Assembly: GCA_021815305.1 (NCBI GenBank)
Contig: JAKAHC010000001.1
Span: forward strand, 372,001-436,000
Origin: Deltaproteobacteria bacterium
Lineage (GTDB): Bacteria > Desulfobacterota > Deferrimicrobia > Deferrimicrobiales > Deferrimicrobiaceae
Direction: 5' to 3'
Length of the DNA stretch: 64,000 nt
Shown: positions 59,516 to 63,891 of the stretch, piece by piece
How positions within the stretch are numbered: the first letter of the stretch is position 1
How the letters are laid out: every line of letters begins with the position of its first letter
Position numbers and translations under genes: made by a program
Notes under the pieces: model-generated
Seen by the model: only the letters and a program-made list of their open reading frames with translations
What the model was told of the DNA's origin: nothing
Database searches by the model: none

Positions 59516-60922
59516 ATGACAATGCCGCAGAGCTCCGCCGCCACCCGCACGAACCTCCCGGTCGTCGCCGACGAGATCTTCCGCCTCATGTCCGCCGCCA
59601 AGCCGTACGGCCGCCGCGAGGCGTTCGCCCTGCTCCGCTCCCTGTCTCCCCGCCGGAGGATGACCCTTCCCGAAACCGCGAGGCTCCTCGCCACGGAAGA
59701 CCCGATGGTGTGGGAGACCGCCGCGGTCGTCGCGCGCGCCGTGAAGGAAGAGGTGTTCGGCCGCAGGATCGTGCTCTTCGCCCCGCTGTACCTGTCCAAC
59801 GAATGCTCCAACAACTGCCTCTACTGCGGCTTCCGCCGGGAGAACCGGGAAGCGCGCCGGATCACCCTCTCCGCCGCCCAGGCCGTCGAGGAGGCGCGAC
59901 ACCTGGAGAGGAAGGGGTTCCACCGGATCCTCCTCGTCGCCGGGGAACACCAGGGGAAGACCGCGGTGGATTACATCACCGGCGTGATCCGGGCGATCTA
60001 CCGCGAAACCGGCATGCGTATCCTCCACGTGAACGCGGCCCCCATGCCCGTGGAATCCTTTCGCGCGCTGAAGGAGGCGGGCGCGGGCGTCTACCAGTGT
60101 TTCCAGGAAACGTACGACCCGGAGACGTACGCCATGATGCACCCCTCGGGCGCGAAGGCGGACTACGCGTGGAGGCTCACCTGCATGGACCGCGCGATCT
60201 CCGCGGGGTTCGGCGACGTGGGGACCGGAGCCCTGCTGGGGCTGAACGATTACAAGTTCGAGGTCCTGTCGGTCATCCGCCACGCGGAAGCCCTCTACGA
60301 GGCGTACGGCGCCTTTCCGCACACGATCTCCGTGCCGCGGTTCAAGCGGGCCTTCGGCGCCCCGATCACCGTCGCCCCCTTCCCCGTCAGCGACTCCGAG
60401 TTCGAGCGCGTCGTCGTCGCGTACCGCCTCGCCGTCCCTTCGGCCGGGGTGGTCGTCTCGACGCGCGAGCCGGCGGCCCTCCGGGAGCGGAGCCTGGACA
60501 TCGGCGCCTCCCAGATCAGCGCGGGGTCCAAGACCGACCCCGGGGGGTACGGAGACGGCGTCCGCCGCCACGAGTCGGAGCAGTTCGAAGTCGACGACAC
60601 CCGCCCGATCGAGGAGATCGTGCGCGCGGTGCTGCGCAAGGGGTACATCCCCTCTCTCTGCACCAGCTGCTACCGCCGCCACAGGACCGGGGACACCTTC
60701 ACCGAGATGGCCCTCGACGGGCACATCCGGGACTATTGCCTTCCGAACGCCCTCCTGACGCTGGCGGAGTACGCCGTGGGGACCGCCGATGCCGACCTGA
60801 AACGCCGTTGTCTCGACGCCGTGGAGGCGGGACGCAGGGACCTCGGGGACTCCGCGCTCCGGCCGGAGTTCGACCGGAAACTCGCGGTCGTGCTCGCCGG
60901 CGGGAGCGACGAGCACTTCTGA
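59516..60922 (+). CDS. HydG-type radical-SAM tyrosine lyase in the thiamine operon
   Basis: 468 residues. Radical-SAM cluster CX3CX2C at Cys97, Cys101, Cys104 ([12 protein letters not shown]). The C-terminal CX2CX22C motif (Cys382, Cys385, Cys408) is the mark of HydG, which uses a second FeS cluster to make CO and cyanide for [FeFe]-hydrogenase. ThiH is shorter (about 370-380) and lacks it. Both enzymes split tyrosine to p-cresol and dehydroglycine. Here it is first in a TPP-controlled run with thiS and thiG, where ThiH is needed, and no hydE, hydF or hydrogenase gene is near. I infer it supplies dehydroglycine for the thiazole. Ribosome site GGGAAG before ATG 59516. Confidence 0.85.
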
Positions 60923-60937
60923 CGAGGGGGGGGACGC

Positions 60938-61138
60938 ATGGAGATCGTCCTCAACGGGGAAACGCGCGCGGTGGGAGAGGGAGCGACGGTCTCCTCGCTC
61001 CTCGAGGAACTGTCGCTGCCGCCGACGCGCGTCGCGGTGGAGCGGAACCGGGTGATCGTCCGGAAGACCGAGTACGGTGCCACGGAGCTCGCGGCGGGGG
61101 ACCGGCTCGAGATCGTCACTTTCGTGGGGGGAGGGTAA
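60938..61138 (+). CDS. thiS: Sulfur carrier protein ThiS
   Basis: 66-residue ubiquitin-like protein ending FVGGG, so the C-terminal Gly-Gly that becomes a thiocarboxylate is followed by a third Gly or forms the last pair. It gives sulfur to ThiG. 15 bases after the HydG-like gene, 5 bases before thiG. The activating ThiF is not in the window. Confidence 0.93.
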
Positions 61139-61143
61139 GGAAC

Positions 61144-61914
61144 ATGGCCGACACGCTGACCATCGGGGGAAAAACGTTTCGTTCGCGCCTGCTCGTGGGG
61201 ACGGGGAAGTACCCCGACTACCCGACGATGGTGCGGGCGCTGGAGGCCTCGGGCGCGGAGATCGTCACCGTCGCCGTCCGCCGAGTCAACCTCGACCGGT
61301 CGAAAGAGTCCCTCCTCGACCACGTCGACCCCAGGCGGTACACCCTCCTGCCCAACACGGCCGCCTGCTTCACGGAAGAGGACGCGGTTCGGACCTGCCA
61401 CCTCGCGCGGGAGGCGGGGATGTCCGACATGGTGAAACTCGAAGTGATCGGTGACGAGAAGACCCTGTTCCCCGACACGCAGGCGCTCCTCGCCGCCGCG
61501 AAGCGGCTCGTGAAGGACGGGTTCGTCGTCCTTCCCTACACCAACGACGACCCCATCATGGCGAAGCGGCTCGAGGACGCCGGGTGCGCCGCGGTGATGC
61601 CGCTGGCGGCTCCGATCGGTTCGGGTCTCGGGATCCGCAACCCGTACAACATCCGGATCATCCTCGAGACCGTGAAGGTCCCCGTCATTGTGGACGCGGG
61701 CGTCGGGACCGCCTCCGACGCGGCGATGGCGCTGGAGCTGGGGTGCGACGGAGTGCTCATGAACACCGCGATCGCCTCCGCGAAGGACCCGGTCCTCATG
61801 GCGGAGGCGATGCGGGACGGGGTTTCCGCCGGGCGCAAGTCGTTCCTGGCCGGGCGGATTCCGAAGAAACTGTACGCAACCGCCTCGTCGCCGCTCGACG
61901 GGACGTTCTTTTAG
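61144..61914 (+). CDS. thiG: Thiazole synthase ThiG
   Basis: 256 residues, TIM barrel. Joins deoxyxylulose phosphate, dehydroglycine and ThiS sulfur into the thiazole. [15 protein letters not shown] at the start, the catalytic Lys in [16 protein letters not shown], then [15 protein letters not shown] and [18 protein letters not shown]. Complete. Confidence 0.97.
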
Positions 61915-61942: not shown

Positions 61943-62601
61943 ATGGAGACCGGTTTCCGGCTCTACCTGATCACGGACCGCAGGCAGGTCGCCGGCGGCG
62001 ATCTCCCGGCGGCCGTGGAGAGGGCGCTGGGGGGCGGGGCGGAAGCAGTCCAGCTTCGGGAGAAGGACCTTCCCGCAAGGCGGCTGTACGACCTGGCGCG
62101 GGAGCTGCGGGCGCTCACGTCCCGGTACGGCGCCAAGCTGCTGATCAACGGGCGGGTCGACGTGGCTCTCGCGGCCGGGGCGGACGGCGTGCACCTCGGC
62201 GTGGGCTCGATCCCGCCGGGGGAGGCGCGCCGGCTCCTGGGGCCACGGGCGCTGATCGGATGTTCGACGCACTCCGCGGCGGAAGCGGCGGAGGCGGAGT
62301 CCGGGGGCGCGGACTTCGTGACGTTCGGACCGGTGTACGCCACCCCGTCGAAGGCGGCCTACGGCCCGCCGGTCGGGGTCGACGCGCTGCGGCGCGTCTG
62401 CGCCGCCGCGCGCCTGCCGGTCTTCGCGCTGGGAGGCATCGGGCCCCGGAACGTGGGAGAGGTGGTCGCGGCCGGGGCGTGCGGGGTCGCGGCGATCTCG
62501 GCGGTATTCGCCGCGAAGGATCCGGGGGAGGCGACCGGGGATTTCGGGCGCCGCCTCGCGGAAGCGTTCATCGTGCGTACACAAGGACAGGAGGGTTCGT
62601 C

Positions 62602-62605
<4 letters not shown>
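61943..62605 (+). CDS. thiE: Thiamine-phosphate synthase ThiE
   Basis: 220 residues; couples the pyrimidine and thiazole halves. YLITDRR at the start, AVQLREKD, LLINGRVDVALAAGADGVHL, and FGPVYATPSKA are standard. ATG 61943. The stop overlaps the thiC ATG (ATGA). No thiD kinase is in the window. Confidence 0.95.

Positions 62606-63891
<1,286 letters not shown>

Follow-up and report, generated by a model that had tools for sequence, protein, structure and literature searches.

A HydG-type radical-SAM protein as the candidate dehydroglycine synthase of a TPP riboswitch-regulated thiamine operon

The first gene of a riboswitch-regulated thiamine operon (59516–60922, + strand) in the window, the whole 64,000-nucleotide stretch of DNA that was analysed, very probably encodes a dedicated O2-independent dehydroglycine (2-iminoacetate) synthase of thiamine synthesis, and we refer to the protein with this candidate activity as thi-HydG. 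A close relative of HydG of this kind, which keeps the extra iron-sulfur site of that enzyme, appears to supply a building block of vitamin B1 in many bacteria that avoid oxygen. To our knowledge, HydG-type enzymes are otherwise known only for building the metal centres of hydrogenases, the second cluster of HydG is understood only as the site at which dehydroglycine is converted to CO and cyanide for hydrogenases, and an extra iron-sulfur site has been thought unnecessary for vitamin B1 synthesis. The open-licence literature searched yielded no report of a HydG within a thiamine operon, and earlier notice in subscription papers is possible.

The operon was delimited with Rfam and Pfam. A TPP riboswitch aptamer (RF00059; 59337–59445, + strand) was detected with 62 bits (gathering score 54.3), and thi-HydG, thiS, thiG, thiE and thiC followed 3' of it on the same strand. 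The downstream genes encode the sulfur carrier ThiS (60938–61138; Pfam ThiS, 56.6 bits), the thiazole synthase ThiG (61144–61914; Pfam ThiG, 372 bits; of the ThiO-partnered class by the ThiG tree and diagnostic residues), the thiamine phosphate synthase ThiE (61943–62605; TMP-TENI, 209.6 bits) and the HMP-P synthase ThiC (62599–63891; ThiC_Rad_SAM, 647.8 bits). The gaps of 15 bases between thi-HydG and thiS, 5 bases between thiS and thiG and 28 bases between thiG and thiE, together with the overlap of thiE and thiC, indicate an arrangement as one operon. The initial annotation had described this succession of riboswitch and genes, headed by a 468-residue radical-SAM protein with two cysteine motifs, and every element of it was recovered. 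In the 468-residue reading frame, the codons of CSNNCLYC (Cys97, 101, 104), the radical-SAM cluster motif CX3CX2C, lie at 59804–59827 (+ strand), and those of CTSC-X22-C (Cys382, 385, 408), the auxiliary [4Fe-4S] cluster motif CX2CX22C, lie at 60659–60739 (+ strand).

Profile and fold comparisons placed the protein with HydG. It scored 382.9 against the HydG model TIGR03955 (cut-off 312.15, passed) and 306.3 against the ThiH model TIGR02351 (cut-off 380, failed). Its AlphaFold model (pLDDT 94.5) superposed on full-length HydG 4WCX with Z 54.5 (450 residues, 1.6 Å), C-terminal domain included, and on HydG 4RTB with Z 48.3, and its identity to the HydG proteins of the PDB was 41–43%. The alignment with ThiH 7PD2 covered 363 residues (Z 47.2), the C-terminal domain being missing from ThiH. 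The cysteines of CSNNCLYC were invariant in both alignments made. The likeness to HydG (TIGR03955; 4WCX, 4RTB) thus comprises the full-length fold, both cluster motifs, the length and the tyrosine-site residues. Every thi-HydG protein tested passed the TIGR03955 cut-off and would accordingly be annotated as a hydrogenase maturase. The public HydG model is thus too permissive, and the name HydG alone is no sign of [FeFe]-hydrogenase maturation.

The HydG equivalog cut-off exceeded, all three auxiliary cysteines and the full HydG fold would also suit an ordinary HydG maturase that lies in a thiamine operon by chance and perhaps serves hydrogenases encoded elsewhere. The residues of the protein argue against this reading. 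TiHydG R178, N180, T201, I322 and M407, which are invariant in 105/105 canonical HydG proteins, were replaced in the 34 thi-HydG proteins by I/M, H, V, V and mostly T, respectively (TiHydG numbering), and correspond to I169, H171, V192, V313 and T396 of the studied protein. The strand motif RxNxN of canonical HydG became IxHxN in the thi clade. Comparison of thi-HydG with HydG bears on which residues commit dehydroglycine to CO and cyanide, and on the origin of the H-cluster pathway. The tyrosine-binding residues of ThiH have been named (PMC9046217), and the equivalents of TcThiH Y80, T299, R300, R306, S318 and S321 were kept in 34/34 proteins of the thi clade; Y92, R317, R323, S335 and S338 of the studied protein match Y80, R300, R306, S318 and S321. 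The sole exception in the tyrosine site was the position of ThiH Glu158, which is Asn in thi-HydG (34/34), as in most HydG proteins.

If thi-HydG works as HydG and ThiH do, its N-terminal [4Fe-4S]-SAM site would generate a 5'-deoxyadenosyl radical, and this radical would cleave the Cα–Cβ bond of tyrosine to yield p-cresol and dehydroglycine. The dehydroglycine would then be passed intact to ThiG, which is of the ThiO-partnered class and would need no ThiH-type docking partner. From dehydroglycine, deoxyxylulose phosphate and ThiS-thiocarboxylate, ThiG would build the thiazole. The auxiliary cluster presumably no longer yields the Fe(CO)2CN building block of hydrogenases and may help to hold, shield or gate dehydroglycine until its release.

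The gene content of the studied genome agreed with such a role. ThiS, ThiG, ThiE and ThiC were present and no ThiH, ThiO or full-length Thi4 was found, which leaves thi-HydG as the sole candidate source of dehydroglycine. A search of this genome with the protein, which would show a separate ThiH, returned only the protein itself and weak unrelated radical-SAM matches, and the HydG model, which also picks up ThiH in relatives, gave a single match. ThiO was not detected above the cut-off in this genome or in any of the 29 genomes searched. Thi4 was considered as the thiazole maker and rejected, because the genome held no full-length Thi4, only short matches to about 50 residues of a nucleotide-binding stretch that were equally found in every control genome. 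The genomes checked held no further known route to dehydroglycine or the thiazole, and thi-HydG would close the gap at the dehydroglycine step in many anaerobes with neither ThiH nor ThiO. The search of the studied genome also returned no HydE above the cut-off, no Fe_hyd_lg_C domain of an [FeFe]-hydrogenase and no HydF (best match 3e-21, within the range of other GTPases). None of thiH, hydE, hydF and hydA, whose joint presence the initial annotation had named as counter-evidence, was therefore found. Most of the genomes were metagenome-assembled, so that these absences rest on a completeness of about 95%, repeated over many genomes. Sulfur supply to ThiS by the second cluster was also considered for an operon without thiF; it is unneeded, since the studied genome has a ThiF-family protein outside the operon, and every genome checked encodes one of the ThiF/MoeB family elsewhere.

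The distribution of thi-HydG was assessed across 297 genomes sampled from the phylum. The gene was present in 24 genomes of nine families and stood directly 5' of thiS-thiG in 23/24 loci, mostly with thiE and thiC after them; the 24th locus was cut by the contig end, yet its riboswitch was present. In one of the loci checked for this (L050), an lgt gene lay between thiG and thiE. A TPP riboswitch preceded thi-HydG in 21/24 loci, the studied one included. ThiH was found in none of the 24 thi-HydG genomes, compared to 16 of 35 genomes with a canonical HydG (Fisher P = 4e-5) and 68 of the 273 genomes without thi-HydG (Fisher P = 0.0015), values that ignore the relatedness of the genomes, overstate certainty and are indicative. 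Two genomes of the same family as the studied one (G179 and G268) carried a true ThiH adjoining thiG instead of thi-HydG. HydF, HydE and hydrogenase were missing from the thi-HydG genomes, except for Moorella-class genomes and G079 (HydE only), all of which have a canonical HydG; G079 was the only one of the 24 phylum carriers with a canonical-type HydG besides thi-HydG. Most of the weak HydE and HydF matches in the carriers came from thi-HydG, from different radical-SAM proteins or from GTPases of other kinds, and a partial HydE-like match in G096 (129 bits) lay below the cut-off. The lack of HydE, HydF and [FeFe]-hydrogenase in the studied genome and its close thi-HydG relatives speaks against a maturase placed in the operon by chance. 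Separately, contig C7 of G079 (85% complete) was seen to carry a HydE-HydG pair (L060), in a genome that yielded neither HydF nor an [FeFe]-hydrogenase.

A scan of named genomes revealed the same arrangement in Nitrospirota (Nitrospiraceae), Deferribacterota (Deferribacteres) and Moorella-class Bacillota (Moorella mulderi). This recurrence of the layout across phyla, with an invariant auxiliary motif, indicates that the arrangement is not due to chance. Moorella mulderi carried two HydG genes, a canonical one adjoining HydE and another that comes last in thiE-thiS-thiG-hydG; HydF was present and ThiH absent. Within the Moorella class, 8/22 genomes had both a canonical HydG and a second HydG (429–468 bits), all without ThiH, and five other genomes of the 22 had ThiH and no complete second HydG (P = 0.08 for this class alone). 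The second copy stood beside thiG in 7/8 of these genomes, the contig of the eighth being short, and the HxN signature and the auxiliary motif were present in 7/7 newly fetched second copies. The coexistence of a canonical and a thiamine-operon HydG shows that the latter is distinct from the maturase, a further point against the chance placement of a maturase. In a Nitrospirae genome, a ThiS-ThiF fusion gene was observed directly upstream of thi-HydG (L101:8076-10251), and no thiG was found on that contig stretch.

We built a tree of 76 HydG and ThiH proteins with IQ-TREE (LG+C20). The thi-linked proteins formed one clade (support 97/88) on the HydG side, and the ThiH group was separated with a support of 100/100. 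The thi clade was sister to the maturation HydG group, whose own branch was weak (89/54). The C. hydrogenoformans 'HydG' 4RTB was considered as a possible thi-HydG and ruled out, as it grouped with canonical HydG in the trees. The studied protein fell into the distinct clade of thiamine-operon genes, not among maturation-active HydG proteins. This separate position, together with the genome content, the coexistence in the Moorella class and the five replaced positions, makes a maturase in the operon by chance exceedingly improbable. Unlike HydG, thi-HydG stands in thi operons with a TPP riboswitch, has the five canonical positions replaced and does not need HydE, HydF or a hydrogenase. The tree supports the reading that thi-HydG and maturation HydG are sister clades which parted long ago, that thi-HydG has members in several phyla, and that the change may have run either way. 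The functional swap between hydrogenase maturation and vitamin synthesis that had been proposed thus stood as far as a HydG-side enzyme occupies a thi operon, but not as a local or recent event. As the two are sister lineages, the auxiliary cluster may have begun in vitamin synthesis, before H-cluster building, or the reverse.

The partner enzyme ThiG was analysed in trees of its own. The ThiGs encoded next to thi-HydG and those encoded next to ThiH were parted by one branch (support 99), a split seen between phyla as well as inside a single family or class. When ThiO-partnered ThiGs were included, these joined the thi-HydG side and the ThiH partners stayed apart (support 97). The ThiO-type references comprised Rhizobium thiC-thiO-thiS-thiG-thiE, one operon each of a Staphylococcus and a Falsirhodobacter in which an FAD oxidoreductase is encoded, a gene on a Deinococcus plasmid, and the structures from B. 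subtilis, P. aeruginosa, M. tuberculosis and Thermus; Deinococcus and the four organisms of the structures are taken by us to use ThiO. Among the ThiG positions that distinguish the classes are A73, G103, D135, N166, D192 and M223. ThiO (glycine oxidase; TIGR02352) provides dehydroglycine to ThiG, and thi-HydG would resemble it in supplying the same ThiG class, whereas ThiO itself is an unrelated O2-dependent flavoenzyme that is absent here. Since its ThiG partner is of the class associated with ThiO, thi-HydG would replace ThiO as much as ThiH, and these sequence comparisons suggest an O2-independent stand-in for ThiO that feeds ThiG independently of a ThiH complex. The earlier proposal of a HydG type in place of ThiH was thus correct in that the genome lacks ThiH, and too narrow in that ThiO would equally be replaced. 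ThiH (TIGR02351; 7PD1) shares with thi-HydG the place next to thiG, the tyrosine-binding residues and the radical-SAM barrel (Z 47), but it lacks the C-terminal cluster domain, has Glu158 instead of Asn, was never found together with thi-HydG in the sampled genomes and has ThiG partners of a different class.

The cysteines of the auxiliary cluster (CX2CX22C) were present in all thi-linked proteins checked with a complete C-terminus (41/41; L049 is cut short in this region), and the surrounding PSLCTxCYR was nearly invariant across phyla. The CX2CX22C motif was not found in the ThiH proteins examined. Cysteines so strictly kept suggest that the cluster is retained under selection and is improbable as a remnant. 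That the second cluster is a mere structural remnant, and that the enzyme acts exactly like ThiH, would fit all known tyrosine-binding residues but one being common to ThiH; we regard it as unlikely, given the conservation of both motifs across phyla, their lack in ThiH and a linked ThiG outside the ThiH-partner class. The same invariance in 41/41 proteins would equally fit a bifunctional enzyme, one that feeds ThiG with dehydroglycine and in addition produces CO and/or cyanide at the auxiliary cluster for some other use. The CO ligand of [NiFe]-hydrogenases could be one such use, and HypD is indeed encoded in many thi-HydG genomes. However, HypD was absent from the near-complete carriers G099, G064, G203, G127, G247 and Moorella, so [NiFe] maturation is not the general reason for the cluster, and CO supply to [NiFe]-hydrogenases as its general purpose is disfavoured. 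With the positions invariant in canonical HydG changed as well, such a double function seems very unlikely. For the dehydroglycine synthase that we favour, we propose tentatively that this HydG-lineage cluster serves thiamine synthesis apart from CO and cyanide, possibly by holding or releasing the unstable dehydroglycine. That a widespread sister clade carries this cluster in B1 operons constitutes a natural experiment on the role of the cluster.

Two further HydG variants were observed. The HydG proteins of L032, L033, L034, L066 and L068 (genomes G245, G028, G065, G160 and G291) read CTAGYR, with the second auxiliary cysteine replaced by glycine, and stand in hydF-positive genomes. A divergent HydG-like protein with a CPRLGR motif (L057-L059 and L062-L065, genus g71) showed several changed tyrosine-site residues, such as R306 to W and S318 to L; its genes lie away from the thi genes, and the host genomes also have ThiH.
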